Shown: one piece after another, positions 39,651-61,227 of the stretch
Layout: every line of letters begins with the position of its first letter
Numbering within the stretch: the first letter of the stretch is position 1
Assembly (NCBI GenBank): GCA_016218045.1
Contig: JACRFB010000001.1
Span: forward strand, 1 to 64,000
Direction: 5' to 3'
DNA length: 64,000 nt
From: Ignavibacteriota bacterium
GTDB lineage: Bacteria; Bacteroidota; Ignavibacteria; SZUA-365
Position numbers and translations under genes: made by a program
Notes under the pieces: model-generated
The model's input: only the letters and a program-made list of their open reading frames with translations
Told to the model about the DNA's origin: nothing
Database searches by the model: none

Positions 39651-39866
39651 CCGTTCCCCGTTCACTGTTCCGTCGCCCCTCGACAAGCTCGGGGTGACAC
39701 GGGTGTTGTCTCGTGTGTCAGGCTGAGCTTGTCGAAGCCGACACACGACAGATTCAGTATGACGGCGGGTCGTCGCCCCTCGACAAGCTCGGGGTGACAC
39801 AGTATTTACATCACGCACGATTTCTCGCGTTCCCCGTTAACCGTTCCCCGTTCCACGTTAACCGTC
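39651..39866. repeat. REP cluster with GTTCCCCG short repeats
   Basis: Three REP copies fill this gap: 39671-39700 and 39771-39800 in the same orientation and 39716-39747 inverted. Short GTTCCCCGTT-type repeats lie on both sides (39651-39672 and 39828-39866). The rfbC stop codon (39858-39860) falls in one of the latter units, GTTAACCGT, which is duplicated (39836 and 39856). No gene is present between 39589 and 39857. Confidence 0.75.
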
Positions 39867-40415: not shown

Positions 40416-40435
40416 GGGAAGTTGGACACAGCTTG

Positions 40436-40461
40436 TGTCACGCCGAGCTTGTCGAGACGCG
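40436..40461. repeat. REP-like palindrome upstream of rfbC
   Basis: An inverted-orientation copy of the dispersed REP element (GTGTCACGCCGAGCTTGTCG...) lies between rfbC and hepT. Confidence 0.75.
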
Positions 40462-40466
40462 ACGGG

Positions 40467-40482
40467 ACGATTAGACGATTAG
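40467..40482. repeat. Two TTAGACGA units at the hepT stop
   Basis: ACGATTAGACGATTAG occupies the end of hepT; the TAA stop (40479-40481 on the minus strand) is part of the unit. The same 8-base unit forms the long arrays on both sides of the S23 gene at 41471, so the HEPN-MNT pair is bracketed by one repeat family. Confidence 0.75.
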
Positions 40483-40892: not shown

Positions 40893-41292
40893 GGGCACGC
40901 GCCTTCGTTGCAGCGACGATTGCATTCATGATGATCTCAAAATCCTGATACTTCCCCTGCTCGGCGAGTCTGTACAGAGCTGTGCGCGTGGGAGAACGCG
41001 AGAATAGGCACAGACCACGACTGAGAATCTGCTGGGTTATCAGTTCTCCGGCGGTGTTCAGAACGACCAGGTCTACGTCTCCGCCCAGACGGTCAGTTAA
41101 CGATGTCATGAGGTCCAACCGTTCATAGGATGATGGTATCGAATCCCGCGAGAACAAAATGGCGACGTCGATGTCGCTGTGTTCATTCGCCGATCCCTTC
41201 GCCCAAGAACCGAACAGCCATATTGCATCGACCTCGGGATGCGTGTGCACCCATTGTTGGAGGGACAATGATATTGCCTTGAGATCGGGCAT
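40885..41292 (-). CDS. mntA: MntA-like antitoxin nucleotidyltransferase
   Basis: The 135-residue protein has WLFGSWAKGSANEHSDIDVA, the GS-x10-D-x-D signature, then GGDVDLVVLN with the third carboxylate. This matches the MntA adenylyltransferase that inactivates HepT. Its start codon (41290-41292) directly abuts the TTAGACGR array, so its promoter, if separate, would lie inside or beyond the array. Confidence 0.85.
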   Translation of the reverse strand: MPDLKAISLSLQQWVHTHPEVDAIWLFGSWAKGSANEHSDIDVAILFSRDSIPSSYERLDLMTSLTDRLGGDVDLVVLNTAGELITQQILSRGLCLFSRSPTRTALYRLAEQGKYQDFEIIMNAIVAATKARAHG

Positions 41293-41385
41293 TAGACGAT
41301 TAGACGGTTAGACGATTAGACGGTTAGACGATTAGACGATTAGACGGTTAGACGATTAGACGATTAGACGGTTAGACGATTAGAG
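41292..41385. repeat. TTAGACGR tandem array, left arm of S23 element A
   Basis: Eleven perfect 8-base units (TTAGACGA or TTAGACGG) followed by a partial unit. The arm begins at the mntA start codon. It is inverted relative to the array at 41884-41931. Confidence 0.95.
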
Positions 41386-41470
41386 TGTGTAGGACGGCGT
41401 CTAACTCGTTTATTCCTAATGTGTTGTAATCCTGCGGGAACATATTGCGACATTGCGGCGTACAACTGCC

Positions 41471-41866
41471 ATGGGACGAACATGGAAACGTATAGAGATT
41501 GTCAACGATTTGGAGGTGTACCAAAAGGCAATGGACGCGTCGATGGATATTTTTGAGTTAACGAAGTTGTTTCCGAAGGACGAAAAATATTCAATGACCG
41601 ATCAAATTCGGCGATCAAGCCGATCGGTATGTGCGAATCTCGCGGAGGCATGGTCAAAACGGATGTACATCGCCGCCCTCAAACAGCGGTTGGTCGATGC
41701 CGTGGCGGAAGCTGCTGAGACACAAACCTGGCTGGAATATTCTTTCAAGTGTAACTACATGTCTGGCGATGTATCCCGCGGACTGTACACTCGCTACCGA
41801 GAAATAATCCGCCTCCTCGCCTCGATGCACTCTCATCCGGAAAAGTGGATACTTCCAAAAAAATAG
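41471..41866 (+). CDS. S23/IVP four-helix-bundle protein (copy A)
   Basis: The 131-residue protein (MGRTWKRIEIVNDLEVYQKA...) has the family pattern: an N-terminal LEVYQKAMDASMDIFELTKL helix, FPKDEKYSMTDQIRRSSRSV, CANLAEAWSKR in place of the usual SIPSNIAEGxxR, and two further long helices. This is the family of proteins encoded in 23S rRNA intervening sequences, related to Avd of diversity-generating retroelements. The start is the ATG at 41471. It is the most divergent of the four copies. No function is established; basic surface and position suggest nucleic-acid binding. Confidence 0.82.
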   Translation: MGRTWKRIEIVNDLEVYQKAMDASMDIFELTKLFPKDEKYSMTDQIRRSSRSVCANLAEAWSKRMYIAALKQRLVDAVAEAAETQTWLEYSFKCNYMSGDVSRGLYTRYREIIRLLASMHSHPEKWILPKK

Positions 41867-41883
41867 CTCTCCAAAAACCCCAA

Positions 41884-41931
41884 CCGTCTAACCGTCTAAT
41901 CGTCTAACCGTCTAACCGTCTAATCGTCCAG
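41884..41931. repeat. Inverted TTAGACGR array, right arm of S23 element A
   Basis: Five perfect CCGTCTAA/TCGTCTAA units and one degenerate unit. The wlbB stop codon (41920-41922) lies within the array. Up to about 40 bases could pair with the left arm in RNA. Confidence 0.92.
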
Positions 41932-42555
41932 TCGTTTACCCACCGTCAGAGCCACCGGCAGAGGCGATTCCTCATCAAGATCCAGACAGCGGAGCACGCC
42001 GGGCTCCACCTCCTGATAGCGCAGCGCGCTTTCAGGGCAGGTATAGATTCCCGTCGCATCGGGTGACACGAGGCGATGCCCGTGTCTGCTCATCCACGCG
42101 ACACGTCGCGCAGGGACGCCGATCATCAGCGCGTAGTCTGGCACATCCTTCGACACCACCGCGCCGGCCGCAATAAATGCATAGCGACCGACGGTGGTCC
42201 CGCACACGATGGTTGCGTTTGCGCCGATTGAGCACCCGCGGCGCAACAGCGTCCGTTCATAGAGACTGTGCCTGTTGATCTGCGAACGTGGGTTGGTCAC
42301 GTTGGTCAGCACACATGACGGACCGAGAAACACATCGTCCTCGATCTCCGTGCCGGTGTACACCGACACATTGTTCTGTATCTTGACATTATTCCCGATA
42401 CGTACATCGTTGGCGATGTGTACGTTTTGCCCGAGTATACAATTGGTACCCAACCGGGCATTTTTCATGACGTGTGAAAAGTGCCAGATTTTTGTTCCAT
42501 CGCCGATCTCGCAGGGCTCGTCGACGTAGGCGGATTCGTGTTTGTAGTACGACAT
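41920..42555 (-). CDS. wlbB: UDP-2-acetamido-3-amino-2,3-dideoxyglucuronate N-acetyltransferase
   Basis: The 211-residue left-handed beta-helix protein starts MSYYKHESAYVDEPCEIGDG, followed by IWHFSHVMKNARLG, VHIANDVRIGNNVKIQNNVS, GTEIEDDVFLGPSCVLTNV, RRGCSIGANATIVCGTTVG and PARRVAWMSRHGHRL. This is the WbpD/WlbB sequence. It adds the 3-N-acetyl group on the path to UDP-GlcNAc3NAcA. The last two codons and the stop are encoded in the TTAGACG repeat array, so its natural C-terminus is modified. Confidence 0.92.
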   Translation of the reverse strand: MSYYKHESAYVDEPCEIGDGTKIWHFSHVMKNARLGTNCILGQNVHIANDVRIGNNVKIQNNVSVYTGTEIEDDVFLGPSCVLTNVTNPRSQINRHSLYERTLLRRGCSIGANATIVCGTTVGRYAFIAAGAVVSKDVPDYALMIGVPARRVAWMSRHGHRLVSPDATGIYTCPESALRYQEVEPGVLRCLDLDEESPLPVALTVGKRLDD

Positions 42556-44447: not shown

Positions 44448-44484
44448 GGGAGAAAAGAGAAAAGAGGGAAGAGGGAAGAGAGAA
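44448..44484. repeat. GGGAAGA-type array, left arm of S23 element B
   Basis: Purine-only short repeats with the 16-base segment at 44463-44478 (AGAGGGAAGAGGGAAG) perfectly complementary to segments of the right arm at 44983-44998, 45025-45040 and 45046-45061. Confidence 0.85.
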
Positions 44485-44506
44485 ATTGAAAGGACTTAAT
44501 GGATTC

Positions 44507-44538
44507 TGGGAACCGAGATTACGGTTCGTGCGTATAAT
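44507..44538 (+). promoter_or_regulatory. Possible promoter of S23 gene B
   Basis: A TATAAT at 44533-44538 lies 41 bases upstream of the S23 start, with no clear -35 box. GGGAAC at 44508 also occurs before copies A (41436) and C (49505 and 49540), which suggests a shared leader motif. Confidence 0.3.
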
Positions 44539-44578
44539 GCTAGCGGTCGACTAACGACCGGTACCACTAGGAGGGGCA

Positions 44579-44977
44579 ATGGAAAACCGTGGATTTTCGC
44601 GCGCGCACTGTAATCTCGAGGCATGGAAAAAAGGCATTGAACTCAGCGAAGCGGTATACGCGGCAACACGAAGATTCCCAGACGATGAACGTTTCGGATT
44701 AACGTCACAAATGCGTCGCGCCGCCGTTTCTATTCCTACGAACATTGCGGAAGGGGCGGCACGATCCGGACCACGTGAGTATGCACACTATCTGTATATC
44801 GCACGTGGCTCATTGAGTGAATTGGAAACATTGATTCACATCAGCACACAACTGGGACTGCTACCATCATCGTCGGTTCTCGCGGCGAAGATGAGCGAGG
44901 TATCACGATCCTTGTCTGGGCTCATCACCTCGATCAGCCGCAAAATCGAAAACATTCCCCGTCGCCCCAAACAATGA
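44579..44977 (+). CDS. S23/IVP four-helix-bundle protein (copy B)
   Basis: The 132-residue protein is a canonical member: HCNLEAWKKGIELSEAVYAA, FPDDERFGLTSQMRRAAVSI, PTNIAEGAARSGPREYAHYL, IARGSLSELETLIHISTQLG and the C-terminal SRSLSGLITSISRKIE helix. The start ATG at 44579 has GGAGGGGC six to eight bases upstream. It reads against the surrounding sugar genes. Related proteins occur inside 23S rRNA intervening sequences and as Avd; the biochemical role is unknown. Confidence 0.9.
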   Translation: MENRGFSRAHCNLEAWKKGIELSEAVYAATRRFPDDERFGLTSQMRRAAVSIPTNIAEGAARSGPREYAHYLYIARGSLSELETLIHISTQLGLLPSSSVLAAKMSEVSRSLSGLITSISRKIENIPRRPKQ

Positions 44978-44982
44978 CACCG

Positions 44983-45072
44983 CTTCCCTCTTCCCTCTTC
45001 ACCCTTCCCTCTTCACTCTTCACCCTTCCCTCTTCCCTCTTCACCCTTCCCTCTTCCCTCTTCACCCTTCGC
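44983..45072. repeat. CTTCCCT/CTTCACC array, right arm of S23 element B
   Basis: About twelve 7-8-base pyrimidine units. The last one merges with the rfbA 3' end: CTTTCACCCTTCAGAC contains the rfbA TGA stop (45078-45080) in the same word context as the repeat (TTCACCCTTC). Confidence 0.92.
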
Positions 45073-45077
45073 GCCTT

Positions 45078-45947
45078 TCACCCTTCAGACAGCAACTCCT
45101 GCAAATATGCGCCATACGGATTCTTCCGCATCGCCTCGCCAAGAGCGCGAAGTTGATCGTTATCAATCCACCCCATGCGCCAGGCAATTTCCTCGGGGCA
45201 GCCGATTTTTAATCCCTGACGCTGTTCGATGGTTTCGATAAACATCGAGGCCTGGAGAAGCGATTCATGTGTGCCCGTATCGAGCCAGGCGGTGCCGCGG
45301 CTCAGCACGTCGACGCTCAATTCTCCCCTTCGAAGGTATTCAAGATTGAGATCCGTGATTTCCAGCTCACCTCGATGAGAGGGCTTCTGCGCCCTTGCGA
45401 ATTCCGAAGCGCGTCCGTCGTAAAAGTATAAACCCGGCACCGCGTAATTGGACTTTGGCTGCGCGGGTTTTTCCTCTATCGAAAGTGCCGTTCCGTCGAC
45501 TCCGAATTCCACCACACCGTAGCGTTCTGGATCACGGACGTAGTATGCAAAGATGCGCGCGCCCGTTTCGAGTGACGCCGCTGCCTGCAGCTTTCTGGCG
45601 AGATCGGCTCCGTAAAACAGATTGTCGCCCAGCACCAGGCACGATGGCGATCCGTCAAGAAAGGACTCACCGATGATGAAAGCCTGCGCAAGTCCGTCAG
45701 GCGAGGGTTGCTCCGCAAAGCTGAATGAAAGCCCCCACATTTCTCCTGTCCCGAGAAGCTCCCGGAAACGCGGAAGATCCTGCGGAGTTGAAATCACCAG
45801 TATTTCCCTGATACCCGCAAGCATCAGCGTCGAAAGCGGATAATAAATCATCGGCTTGTCGTACACAGGGAGGAGCTGCTTGCTCACGACGCGCGTGAGC
45901 GGATGCAGGCGCGTGCCGGAGCCGCCGGCGAGGATGATGCCTTTCAT
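45078..45947 (-). CDS. rfbA: Glucose-1-phosphate thymidylyltransferase
   Basis: The start at 45947 ([20 protein letters not shown]) gives 289 residues, the family norm; a longer reading is only translated tandem repeat. Further motifs are [66 protein letters not shown] and [16 protein letters not shown]. It makes dTDP-glucose from glucose 1-phosphate and dTTP. Tandem arrays touch it on both sides (44983-45072 and 45949-46016). Confidence 0.95.
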
Positions 45948-45948
45948 G

Positions 45949-46016
45949 GGGAGACGGGGAACGGTAGACGTGAGACGTGAGACGGGAGACGGGAGACGTG
46001 AGACGTGAGACGTGAG
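45949..46016. repeat. GTGAGAC tandem array upstream of rfbA
   Basis: About eight 7-base units (GTGAGAC and GGGAGAC variants) begin one base upstream of the rfbA start codon. The same unit forms the arms of S23 element C, 3.4 kb away, but there is no S23 gene here. It fills the gap between rfbA and the nucleotidyltransferase gene and may be a solo arm. Confidence 0.9.
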
Positions 46017-46041
46017 CCGAGAGAGGTAGGCGGCTTCCGTT

Positions 46042-46614
46042 TTACACGGATGCTTCGACATCGTCACGCAAATCAAGCAGGCGCGGGACAATTGTCTCGT
46101 CTTCCTTCAAGGCCGCAAGAGGTCGGAGTTCTTGCAGGATGAGCTGCCAGTCGAGGTGCGTATGCTGACGGATGATCACGCCGTGTATGTCGACCCAATC
46201 CTGCGGTCTGCTCGCGAATGCCTTGAGTATGATCAGGTCCTCGGCGCTGCAGGTGCGGAGGGCGCGGGTTGGCGAATAGGAGAAAGCACTTGATCTGTCG
46301 ATGCAGCGTTCCTCGTAGGGCAGGCCCCCGAGCGCGGCATCGATGGGGATGCCATTTGTTGCTGAAATAAGGAGGACGCGATTCTGTAGTGCGAATGTGC
46401 GCGCATCTTTCAGGCGTGCCTGATACAATGAGAGTATGTAATCGATCAGCTCTTCCTCATCCCCGAATCGACAGAGAATCGTTGCGTCAACATTGCGAGT
46501 CAGTCGTGGCTCACCCCACCGGAGAAGTGCCAGCCCGCCTATAAAGCAAAATGGATGGGCGCCCTCTGTGAGTCGAGTTTGGATCTCGAATGCAGCGTCA
46601 AGCAGTTCTGTCAT
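46042..46614 (-). CDS. Nucleotidyltransferase (AbiEii-like)
   Basis: The 190-residue protein has [20 protein letters not shown] and RNVDATILC, an AbiEii/MNT-like GG and D-x-x site in which the usual D-x-D is only partly kept (NVDATI), then [20 protein letters not shown] and DIHGVI. It overlaps a small upstream gene by 17 bases. It is the third nucleotidyltransferase pair among the sugar genes, lying between wlbC and rfbA. Confidence 0.75.
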
Positions 46615-46834: not shown

Positions 46835-46863
46835 GTATAGTACTACTTATGGTATGTCGTTCC

Positions 46864-46892
46864 GTCGCGCCTCGACAAGCTCGGCGTGACAC
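46864..46892. repeat. REP-like palindrome
   Basis: A copy of the dispersed GTCGCGCCTCGACAAGCTCG element, between the nucleotidyltransferase pair and wlbC. Confidence 0.8.
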
Positions 46893-46937
46893 AGATGTGC
46901 TGTTTCGCTTCCCCTCTGTGGCTCTGCCCTCTGTCCC

Positions 46938-48126: not shown

Positions 48127-48190
48127 GGGGAATGGAGTTAATGGGGTAAATGGGGGGGGAATGGAGTAAATGGGGTGAATGGGGTGAATA
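48127..48190. repeat. 9-bp AATGGGGTG array, arm of S23 element D
   Basis: Units of AATGGGGTG, AATGGGGTA and AATGGAGTA run from 48127 to 48190 upstream of wlbC. The segment at 48169-48182 (AATGGGGTGAATGG) is perfectly complementary to 48429-48442 at the other end of the S23 fragment. Confidence 0.88.
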
Positions 48191-48202
48191 TGTGTAGGGG
48201 TG

Positions 48203-48436
48203 TTAGAGATTTATTACGACACTTTTTTTGTATGCCATAAGGAGATAGGAAGCGCGATGATGTGCGGCGAAGATTGGATCGGATTCCGTTATATAACCGA
48301 GACGTAGAGCGATAGTCAGTTGGGTATCGAGTTCACTCATCAATCCACTGGTGATCGATAAGAACTGATTCAGTTCGCGGTTGCTGCTGCGGCCTGCTCC
48401 CTCGGCAATGTTGGACGGAACCGATGCTCCATTCAC
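48203..48436 (-). pseudogene. S23/IVP protein, N-terminally truncated (copy D)
   Basis: The frame reads GASVPSNIAEGAGRSSNREL with NQFLSITSGLMSELDTQLTI following, clearly the middle and C-terminal half of an S23 protein, but the first helix and the LxxQMRRA segment are absent. The only starts (GTG at 48436) lie in the gmd stop-codon repeat, at the exact breakpoint. About 45 residues are missing compared with copies B and C. It is probably a remnant; expression as a 77-residue protein is possible. Confidence 0.8.
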
Positions 48437-49410
48437 CCCATTCCCGCGATGGCGGCGAGATCTGCATCGACCATCAGCCGTACCAGGTCGGCGTAGGTTG
48501 TCTGGGCTTTCCAGCCGAGATCGGCGTGGGCACGAGACGGGTCGCCGAGGAGTATATCCACTTCGGCGGGGCGGTAATACAGCGGATCAGTCGTGACATA
48601 ATCGCGGTAATCGAGACCGACATGCGAGAAGGCCGCGTCAACAAATTCGCGCACACTGTGCGCTTCGCCGGTGGCGATCACGTAATCGCGGGGTTCATCC
48701 TGCTGAAGGATCAGCCACATCGCTTCGACATACTCTTTTGCATACCCCCAGTCGCGTTTCGCGTCGAGATTGCCGAGGCGCAATTCCCTCGTCTTGCCGG
48801 CCTTGATACGCGCCACGGTGCCCGTGATCTTGCGTGTCACGAATTCGAAACCGCGCCGTGGTGATTCATGATTATATAATATCCCGCTGGCGGCTTTTAG
48901 TCCGTAGGCCTCTCGATAATTTCTCGTGAGATGAAAGCCGGCCACCTTGGTGATACCGTACGCCGAGCGGGGGTGAAAGTCGGTGTCCTCGTTCTGCGGC
49001 ACCTCGCGTACCTTGCCGAACATCTCGCTCGATCCGGCAAAATAGAATCGGCACTCGGGCGCCACCTGCTTGATCGACGAAAGCATATAATGCGTTCCGT
49101 CGATGTTCGTGTTGAACGTCGAGAATTCATCCTCGAAGGAATAACTCACAAAACTCTGCGCGGCGAGATGATAACACTCGTCGGGCCGTACTTCGCGAAT
49201 CACGTTAAAAAGACTGGGGTAGCTCTCAAGCGAGGCGGGATGCAGCCGCACCCTGTCGTACAAATGCCGGATCCGACCCAGCCGATGCTCGGGATCCTCG
49301 ATTGCCACACGGCGCACAAGGCCGTGAACATCATAGCCCTTCGCGAGCAGAAATTCCGCCAGGTAACTGCCGTCCTGGCCGGTGATGCCGGTGATGAGTG
49401 CTGTGGGCAT
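48433..49410 (-). CDS. gmd: GDP-mannose 4,6-dehydratase
   Basis: The 325-residue SDR has ALITGITGQDGSYLAEFLLA, HLAAQSFVSYSFEDE, SSEMFGKV, the catalytic SAYGITKVAGFHLTRNYREA, LYNHESPRRGFEFVTRKIT and RDWGYAKEYVEAMWLILQQD. It makes GDP-4-keto-6-deoxymannose, precursor of fucose, rhamnose or perosamine; the second enzyme is not in the window, although an SDR at 34141 could serve. The C-terminus overlaps the S23 D arm. Confidence 0.95.
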   Translation of the reverse strand: MPTALITGITGQDGSYLAEFLLAKGYDVHGLVRRVAIEDPEHRLGRIRHLYDRVRLHPASLESYPSLFNVIREVRPDECYHLAAQSFVSYSFEDEFSTFNTNIDGTHYMLSSIKQVAPECRFYFAGSSEMFGKVREVPQNEDTDFHPRSAYGITKVAGFHLTRNYREAYGLKAASGILYNHESPRRGFEFVTRKITGTVARIKAGKTRELRLGNLDAKRDWGYAKEYVEAMWLILQQDEPRDYVIATGEAHSVREFVDAAFSHVGLDYRDYVTTDPLYYRPAEVDILLGDPSRAHADLGWKAQTTYADLVRLMVDADLAAIAGMG

Positions 49411-49419
49411 GGCGGTTGG

Positions 49420-49453
49420 TCGTGAGACGTGAGTCGAAAGACGTGAGACGGAA
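49420..49453. repeat. GTGAGACG array, left arm of S23 element C
   Basis: Contains AAGACGTGAGACGGAA at 49438-49453, the perfect reverse complement of 49965-49980. It lies just upstream of the gmd start. Confidence 0.88.
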
Positions 49454-49567
49454 TACGTGCGAGGTTTAAAAGTAGCGGCCTGTCACGAGTTATGTCGTAG
49501 AACTGGGAACATTTTTCTTGTTCCTGTAGTATAACATCTGGGAACCACACTCACTCGGAGGTAGAAA

Positions 49568-49951
49568 ATGGATCGCGATGCGGAATGGGAGATAAGGGGA
49601 CGGGGGCATGAGAAGTTGGATGTATGGAGGCTGTCCATCGATTTGGCAGAATTTGTCTGGAAATTTACATCGTCGCTGCCAAAAGAGGAGAGATACGTTC
49701 TCGTTTCCCAGATGCGACGCTCGGCTTTATCGATCCCATCAAACATTGCTGAGGGTGCCGCCCGTGTCAGCCCTGCTGAGAAGGCGCGCTTTTACACTAT
49801 CGCCCGAGGCTCCGCTGCAGAACTCGAAACCCAGTTCGTGATTTCTGCAAGACTCGGCTTCGTTTCACGCGGACAGTTCGACCTCTCGATACTTGATCGG
49901 ATCACAGCGATGCTCTCAGCAATGATTCGCAAGCAGAAAAGCCAGCATTAG
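49568..49951 (+). CDS. S23/IVP four-helix-bundle protein (copy C)
   Basis: The 127-residue protein has HEKLDVWRLSIDLAEFVWKF, LPKEERYVLVSQMRRSALSI, PSNIAEGAARVSPAEKARFY, IARGSAAELETQFVISARLG and a C-terminal LDRITAMLSAMIRKQK helix. It matches the S23 family across its whole length and is closest to copy B. The ATG at 49568 has CGGAGGTAGAAA just upstream, a strong ribosome-binding site, so it looks translated. Confidence 0.9.
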   Translation: MDRDAEWEIRGRGHEKLDVWRLSIDLAEFVWKFTSSLPKEERYVLVSQMRRSALSIPSNIAEGAARVSPAEKARFYTIARGSAAELETQFVISARLGFVSRGQFDLSILDRITAMLSAMIRKQKSQH

Positions 49952-49984
49952 CTCGTCTCACGTCTTCCGTCTCACGTCTTACCG
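49952..49984. repeat. Inverted GTGAGACG array, right arm of S23 element C
   Basis: CTCGTCTCACGTCTTCCGTC followed by TCACGTCTTACCG. The segment 49965-49980 pairs perfectly with 49438-49453. It ends six bases short of the antiterminator stop codon. Confidence 0.88.
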
Positions 49985-49990
49985 TTTCCT

Positions 49991-50527
49991 CTACAGCGCG
50001 AGATCCGCAACAGGCACCTCCACCGACACAATCTGGTTAATCACTTCGACGCGGATTGCAACGCGCGTGCCGCCACGGAATTCGACGAGATGGCCGCGGA
50101 GGCCGCTCATCGGACCGTGCCGTACCAGCACCTCCTGACCGAGCCGCAGTGACGTGTCTTCAAGGCGCACGTCCTCCGGCCGTGTGATGGCAATGCGCAG
50201 ACTGTCGATGGTACTATTGGATACGACCGCAAGTTTCCCGCCGAAACTGACGTAGCGCAACGCTCCATCAGTTTCCAACGCGGTGATGCGTTCGCGCTCA
50301 TGTACAAACACAAACACATACCCGGAAAAGAGGGGACTCTCCACAACCTTCTTCCGGTCGGACCATTGGCGTACTTCCTCGCGAAGCGGGAGAAAACATT
50401 CAATCGCGCGCTCTACAAGCTGGTCGCGAATCTTCTTTTCGAAGCGCGGACGCGTGTAGAGCACGAGCCAACGTCGTCGCGCACCGCCCGCCCGTAGATC
50501 CGGAGAAAGCTCCGCCAATTCACTCAC
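49991..50527 (-). CDS. NusG-like (UpxY/RfaH-type) transcription antiterminator
   Basis: The 178-residue protein has RRWLVLYTRPRFEKKIRDQL, ECFLPLREEVRQWSDRKKVV, PLFSGYVFVFVHERERITAL and a C-terminal KOW-like segment (LRLGQEVLVRHGPMSGLRGH). Its NGN domain is of the kind that heads Bacteroidota capsule operons. As first gene it should bind RNA polymerase at the locus leader and let it read through the 50-kb operon. The start is a GTG at 50527. Confidence 0.88.
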   Translation of the reverse strand: MSELAELSPDLRAGGARRRWLVLYTRPRFEKKIRDQLVERAIECFLPLREEVRQWSDRKKVVESPLFSGYVFVFVHERERITALETDGALRYVSFGGKLAVVSNSTIDSLRIAITRPEDVRLEDTSLRLGQEVLVRHGPMSGLRGHLVEFRGGTRVAIRVEVINQIVSVEVPVADLAL

Positions 50528-60991: not shown

Positions 60992-61073
60992 CCGTCGGGG
61001 AACGGGAAACGTGATGAACGTCGCAGATGCGAGTGCGCACCATTCACATCTGCCCTCATCATGTTTCCCGTTC

Positions 61074-61102
61074 CGTCGCCCCTCGACAAGCTCGGGGTGA
61101 CA
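61074..61102. repeat. REP-like palindrome
   Basis: GTCGCCCCTCGACAAGCTCG copy of the dispersed element, between cusA and the nitrilase gene. Confidence 0.8.
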
Positions 61103-61164
61103 CAGTATTTCCATCACGCATTCCGGTTCGCCATTCCCCGTTCAGACTTCCCAGTTCCAAGTTC

Positions 61165-61194
61165 CGTCGCGCTTCGACAAGCTCAGCGTGACAC
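61165..61194. repeat. REP-like palindrome
   Basis: Second copy in the same gap (GTCGCGCTTCGACAAGCTCA...). Confidence 0.78.
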
Positions 61195-61227
61195 TACTTC
61201 GCTGTCACGCGTTTCCCGTTCCCCGTT

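Follow-up and report, generated by a model that had tools for sequence, protein, structure and literature searches.

An S23 gene with inverted heptamer arms between an antiterminator gene and gmd: probably a small insertion cassette

In the DNA analysed here (the window, 64,000 nt at the start of contig C1 of an Ignavibacteriota genome, G000, a 4.77 Mb draft in 72 contigs), an S23 gene enclosed by inverted arrays of a tandem heptamer, hereafter element C, separates two surface-sugar genes, one for a transcription antiterminator and one gmd-like. Element C is probably a horizontally moving S23 cassette, similar to the intervening sequences (IVSs) of 23S rRNA, that landed between genes and is one of a widespread set of small insertion cassettes. 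It is a lineage-specific insertion and not a conserved attenuator. Comparison of S23 loci shows that arms and S23 gene form one unit in inheritance and exchange, and that these cassettes occupy, vacate and decay at junctions of adjacent genes. S23 proteins are common across bacterial genomes, under the annotation four helix bundle protein, and to our knowledge have no known function; the cassette reading would give them a context, namely that of an element with private inverted heptamer arms moving between gene junctions.

Element C within its host operon

The host operon is read from the reverse strand, in the order antiterminator, element C and gmd. The antiterminator gene (49991-50527, reverse strand) belongs to the UpxY family (NF033644, 140.8 bits for a cut-off of 100), and the gmd-like gene (48433-49410, reverse strand) encodes a GDP-mannose 4,6-dehydratase with 396 bits to PF16363, far above cut-off, and 391 bits to TIGR01472, under the cut-off of 415. 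The original prediction, made from the letters alone, placed a translated-looking S23 gene with a GGAGGT ribosome-binding site between these two genes, and this was borne out: the S23 or 23S rRNA-intervening-sequence protein gene lies at 49568-49951, encodes 127 amino acids and belongs to the family by both PF05635 (111.3 bits, cut-off 33.8) and TIGR02436 (107.8 bits, cut-off 24), while GGAGGT is found at 49557-49562, 5 nt ahead of the ATG. Both are on the forward strand, so that the gene is antisense to its host operon, which corrects the earlier account. The predicted model of the protein (pLDDT 88) is a four-helix bundle like that of solved S23 members, with 2gsc as best PDB match (E 1.8e-7, TM 0.80).

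Upstream of the gene and still within the arms, a promoter-like GGGAAC-N18-GTATAA is present at 49505-49534 (forward strand). With a spacing of 17 or 18 nt, the same sequence precedes S23 in three elements of the source genome, namely element C, the gene at 44.6 kb and locus L006, i.e. in 3 of 38 S23 leaders where none would be expected, and strict matches occur in the window just twice, each time in an S23 leader. Judged by sequence, it is likely to be the S23 gene's own promoter in these three elements.

Regarding the arms, the U arm (49422-49450, forward strand) lies 11 nt ahead of the gmd start codon and the D arm (49954-49982) lies 2 nt past the S23 stop codon and 8 nt from the antiterminator stop codon. 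The inverted arms foreseen originally are thus present, but their length is 29 nt each with 26 of 29 positions complementary (90%), rather than 16 bp, and they consist of tandem copies of the 7-mer GTGAGAC, the D arm being the reverse complement of the U-type array. When the 400 nt upstream of a gene are aligned with the reverse complement of the 400 nt downstream, which defines the arm score used throughout, element C scores 22.4, compared with a 99th percentile of 22.0 among 600 random positions; a score of 22 is attained by 8 of 350 control genes. Minimum-energy folding of either strand yields paired arms that close off the element (z -2.7 on the operon strand, -2.0 on the S23 strand), and the expectation that they could pair in the operon RNA therefore holds as a prediction.

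From this pairing it had also been proposed that a hairpin directly behind the antiterminator gene, as a site of attenuation or processing, regulates the whole locus. The position, the predicted pairing in the operon RNA (z -2.7) and the presence of an RNase III gene in the genome speak for it, the latter making processing of the element C RNA possible. However, no intrinsic terminator was found at the arms, and a search of Rfam families over 38-54 kb of the window returned none, including no attenuator and no rRNA match; element C shows neither the terminator or conserved leader structure nor the conserved place of attenuators of polysaccharide operons. Besides, the gene order etfB-etfA-BFN-antiterminator-gmd-degT is conserved across the family and the order, yet eight relatives with this order have no element between the antiterminator gene and gmd (G003, G012, G014, G013, G005, G002, G011 and G006, with gaps of 31-155 nt). 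The sole other occupied junction, in G004, holds an S23 gene that is oppositely oriented, frameshifted and flanked by another word, GTGAAAAG; in the S23 tree, built from 99 columns and read at its starred forks only, the occupants of G000 and G004 fall in different branches. The same cassette type is also found behind unrelated genes, namely nuoC, cas6, nrd and phage head genes. Regulation of the antiterminator-gmd locus is thus a very unlikely role, and nothing built in is supported for this operon beyond a possible RNA processing site.

The neighbouring gmd-degT junction tells the same story, being empty in G003, G013 and G014 and occupied in G002, G004, G005 and, by a decayed element, in G000; the occupants of G002 and G004 are orthologs, those of G000 and G005 belong to another clade. 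Taken together, the pattern of empty and occupied sites at both junctions argues for insertion and not for a conserved regulator. The decayed element in the window (48127-48452, reverse strand, between gmd and the DegT gene) retains the C-terminal part of S23 (48203-48436) and an array of GGGGTGAAT (48127-48193), the first third of S23 being missing. Here the arm word GGGGTGAAT includes the gmd stop codon TGA, and the C-terminal end of the gmd product (..AGMG) is unlike that of relatives. In G004, the S23 element behind gmd is flanked downstream by several direct repeats of about 100 nt, each with the word CCCTTTACC (L077, 6000-6400).

Four of the nine S23 hits in the source genome lie within the window. 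Besides element C and the decayed copy, these are two intact elements on the forward strand, at 41291-41941 with the word TTAGACGA and at 44448-45087 with GAGGGAA. The words of the S23 elements of this genome all differ (CAGAATC, AGGAGAC, GAGGGAA, GTGAGAC, TTAGACGA, AGCGGGAC, GTGGAAAGTAGCAA and GGGGTGAAT). The heptamer array search also returned an S23-less array with the word of element C, as AGACGTG, at 45966-46024 (forward strand); it adjoins a gene (46042-46614, reverse strand) weakly similar to AbiEii nucleotidyltransferases. A separate dispersed repeat family, TCGACAAGCTCAGCGTGACAC-like and unrelated to the heptamers, occurs in both orientations at 1958-1993, 39667-39800, 40434-40470, 46857-46909 and 61069-61211.

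Heptamer arms at S23 loci and elsewhere

Arms are a general feature of S23 loci. Across the source genome and related genomes, 72 of 96 S23 loci have an arm score of at least 17 (median 22.2), vs. 11 of 350 control genes (median 10.8) and 18 of 600 random positions. The period of 7 is evident from the pooled matches at lag 7 (0.52) and lag 14 (0.50), most other lags giving 0.25-0.36, and in 67 of the 72 elements the top match of the U arm is the element's own D arm. For elements at unrelated sites, the more alike the S23 proteins, the more alike the words (Mantel r 0.156 after correction for G+C, 0 of 2000 permutations; r 0.027 in the opposite-strand control), from which it follows that the heptamer word is inherited with the S23 lineage. 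The word also drifts, since S23 proteins that are 60% alike often carry different words. Some S23 genes are without arms, such as the fused protein of L009, L130, and the viral L221-L223 and L229; L009 (G000, C4:50691-50906) is a weak match, an S23-like domain in an open frame of 272 amino acids.

A TRAP-like reading of the words, where an S23 ring would bind an AG motif once per unit, was rejected, AG being 1.2 times as frequent as expected and no motif being common to the words. So was the reading of the 7-mers as stops in all frames, with 6.1 stop triplets per 100 nt read inward against 7.25 in the reversed control; the pattern of stop codons within arms is accounted for by composition alone.

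Such arms reach far beyond the relatives of the source organism. They were found at S23 loci of Calditrichota, Clostridia, Kaiserbacteria (CPR), Phycisphaerae, Gemmatimonadota, Bacteroidetes and KSB1, as well as on cyanobacterial and Gemmatirosa plasmids, and 11-12 of the 14 loci from other phyla and plasmids exceed their own shuffle maximum. A single-protein scan of genome contigs with S23 gave seven loci, and the IMG/VR contigs a further 14, most of them with arms; the four armless viral loci named above (L221, L222, L223 and L229) are closely related contigs of this set. No S23 was returned from annotated phage records by the query used. In viral L227 (1-752) and L228 (1399-1860), the start of the contig looks like a head-to-tail duplicated S23 element with one arm shared; this arm is a hybrid of U- and D-type repeats, and the apparent duplication could be an assembly artefact.

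Heptamer arrays also exist without S23. A stretch of 810 kb of the source genome contains 181 heptamer-type arrays and 30 inverted pairs, part of which overlap. An S23 gene lies in every pair spaced by 390-550 nt, and about 13 pairs are S23-less, with spacers of about 60-155 nt. Among the 163 arrays far from any S23, 74 match a word of a resident S23 element; when equally many S23 words were drawn at random from family members, the mean was 16 and the maximum 39 (5000 draws). The arms of 12 of the 13 short hairpins match a resident S23 element, and two such hairpins on different contigs are 80% alike over 220 bp. These (C59:14973-15192 and C72:191032-191244) are nested, with outer GGTAGAT arms around an inner AGGAGAC hairpin. 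In G004, 15 of 50 arrays share words of resident S23 elements vs. 5.6 (P 0.004); in G050, such word sharing was not seen. Shared words of arrays and S23 elements could reflect mobilisation in trans, remnants of decayed S23 copies or arrays that spread locally.

The abundance of these arrays bears on another reading, namely that the arms are not part of the element at all: heptamer arrays would arise in intergenic DNA by replication slippage and template switching, and S23 would merely reside among them. In favour of this, the 181 arrays make heptamers common in the source genome without S23, and the available text of two reports describes heptamer arrays elsewhere with no link to S23 (PMC4692102; PMC4679880) and, in the former, period 7 as a known excess among bacterial repeats. 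Moreover, arm mismatches show no excess of wobble pairs in the RNA of the S23 strand (155 vs. 135, P 0.26), hence no support for selection on an RNA stem. The reading nevertheless has to face the contrast between 72 of 96 S23 loci and 11 of 350 control genes, a word that is private and tracks S23 identity, the S23 gene present in every inverted pair of 390-550 nt spacing, and the joint exchange of arms and S23 in phages described below. Slippage is thus quite unlikely as the origin of the arms, and a cassette comprising arms and S23 together is the preferred reading.

Occupation, loss and exchange of junctions

Gain and loss are seen at other junctions. The nuoC-nuoD junction holds an element in G050, G025 and G041 and none in several relatives, while G032 retains a decayed remnant, made of the S23 C-terminus and the downstream arm only; by appearance, this cassette is partly vertical. 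NuoC ends in PY in all genomes read. The nuoC stop codon is TAG in the three S23-occupied genomes only and TAA or TGA in the others (L118, L016 and L189 vs. L187-L201).

In phages L217-L219, the element lies exactly between genes that look, by eye, like head-decoration and capsid genes, and the same junction is empty in eight related contigs. The insertion is clean, with no clear target-site duplication and a few differing junction bases; where readable, the host stop codon changes from TAA in empty sites to TGA in occupied ones, this TGA being the outer edge of the arm. The S23 genes of L217-L219 differ by a dS of 0.08-0.19, vs. 0.43-1.73 for the neighbouring genes (Fisher 5e-9 and 4e-15 for two pairs), and none of 66 arm sites has changed. 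Homologous recombination or strong constraint could add to this low divergence. Conversely, two contigs of G018 share their flanks (91% and 97% identical) around different S23 genes with different arms, a case that could be a strain mixture or a duplication. The phages and the G018 flanks together indicate that S23 and its arms are exchanged as one unit.

The S23 gene is kept as a protein, as judged from substitution patterns that indicate purifying selection: omega is 0.38, 0.01 and 0.10 in three ortholog pairs, and in more distant pairs dS is saturated and dN low. With the longest ORF taken as an approximation of each flanking gene, S23 is co-oriented in 44 of 54 cases within co-directional gene pairs and antisense in 10 (P 3e-6), element C being among the antisense minority. 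Where S23 is co-oriented, the upstream arm sets in at the preceding gene's stop codon (median distance 0.5 nt), and about 11 nt separate the S23 stop from the downstream arm.

Selection and the sense-orientation bias, together with vertical retention in some lineages at nuoC-nuoD and gmd-degT, would suit S23 cassettes that are domesticated host modules, where an RNA-binding S23 uses the arms to keep its own message stable or insulated within polycistronic RNAs, with vertical inheritance and occasional loss. This is hard to reconcile with a patchy distribution, a slot that was filled twice independently, exchange among phages, decayed copies and a copy number that ranges from none (12 of 61 genomes) up to 15 diverged copies per genome, and we regard domestication as fairly unlikely.

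As a mobile cassette, the element would be laid out as a private array of a 7-8-mer, a leader with promoter-like sequence and ribosome-binding site, the S23 gene and an inverted array of the same word. Such a cassette, an intergenic relative of the S23-encoding 23S rRNA IVSs, may be selfish or semi-selfish and would be tolerated because its landing sites lie between stop and start codons; paired into a long RNA stem, its arms might insulate the insert or let RNase III trim it, as in rRNA, and the probable target of the S23 protein is its own arms or transcript. Element C would have landed antisense between the antiterminator gene and gmd. The mechanism of movement is one that we infer: neither target-site duplication nor nuclease is evident for S23 cassettes, and no recent copy was caught, within-genome copies being very diverged and near-identical pairs occurring at homologous sites only.

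Comparison with known systems

No description of S23 genes between protein genes with heptamer arms was found in the open-access literature; S23 with private heptamer arms outside rRNA is apparently an arrangement not described so far. Tandem 7-mers in intergenic DNA are known, as GGGAATC in Xanthomonas and Nostoc (PMC4692102) and TAACTGA in Beggiatoaceae (PMC4679880). In the available text of these reports, the Xanthomonas repeats often form convergent inverted pairs and the TAACTGA sets may overlap upstream stop codons; it concentrates on one word each and mentions no S23 gene, whereas each S23 element here has its own word. Part of the excess of heptamer repeats in bacteria could find its explanation in S23 cassettes.

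Dispersed short hairpins that share their ends with a resident gene-bearing element recall the RAYT/REPIN and MITE systems (PMC3116915), a likeness that is seen in G000 and G004 and not in G050. Unlike these systems, the S23 cassette has no RAYT, HUH-type or other transposase; on element C, a profile search for a transposase found none and S23 is the sole profiled gene between the arms. The ends are tandem heptamers and the gene encodes a four-helix bundle. S23 cassettes could be a minimal class of mobile elements in their own right, built on one small non-transposase protein that recognises the heptamer arrays at its own ends; they would spread into gene junctions across phyla and phages and would also mobilise, in trans, S23-less hairpins that bear their word. 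Under this view the S23-encoding elements of 23S rRNA would form a specialised branch of the class, and the unexplained heptamer excess of bacterial genomes would in part be its debris. This wider proposal is tentative and, in our judgement, somewhat improbable.

A four-helix bundle is also found in Avd, the accessory protein of diversity-generating retroelements (DGRs), to which S23 has a weak Foldseek match (8ub7, probability 0.98, TM 0.52, E 0.3), and S23 acting like Avd could move its cassette with the help of a reverse transcriptase. However, no RVT_1, the mark of a DGR, was found in G000, in G004 (one contig) or in G050, despite 9, 7 and 15 S23 hits, respectively, so that such help is highly improbable and we keep to an IVS-like cassette.

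Regarding CRISPR, the 23S rRNA IVP is mentioned among CRISPR-linked domains (PMC10910872). Two cyanobacterial plasmids (L156, 1220-1999, and L160, 1220-1995) each have a CRISPR operon in which an S23 cassette with heptamer arms separates cas6 from cas4, cas1d being annotated in that of L160. S23 may be an insertion there rather than a Cas component, and caution is required not to read an S23 gene as part of its host operon, as in these cas6/cas4 cases.

Family and fold are shared by the S23 of element C with XCC0516 of Xanthomonas campestris (PDB 2gsc) and BT_0352 (2rld); the former is reported to form a pentameric ring (PMC4990558, citing Lin 2006).

The closest likeness is with the rRNA IVSs, where S23 is known (PMC4990558; PMC11270868). 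Element C differs from them in lying between protein genes instead of in a 23S rRNA helix, in its arms, which are tandem 7-mers of a private word, and in an S23 ORF that is antisense to its operon, a sense ORF being what IVSs have and what 44 of 54 intergenic S23 genes show as well. The S23 protein is under purifying selection here, whereas that of Coxiella appears not to be made (PMC4990558). Nonetheless, element C and the S23-encoding IVSs of Coxiella and Leptospira are alike in being small, at about 430-560 nt, and in holding an S23 ORF within complementary ends that form a long stem, of 28 bp in the Coxiella IVS, where it is cut by RNase III in vitro, and of 29 nt in element C (PMC4990558). 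With pairs of empty and occupied sites at hand, the spread of rRNA intervening sequences thereby becomes testable.
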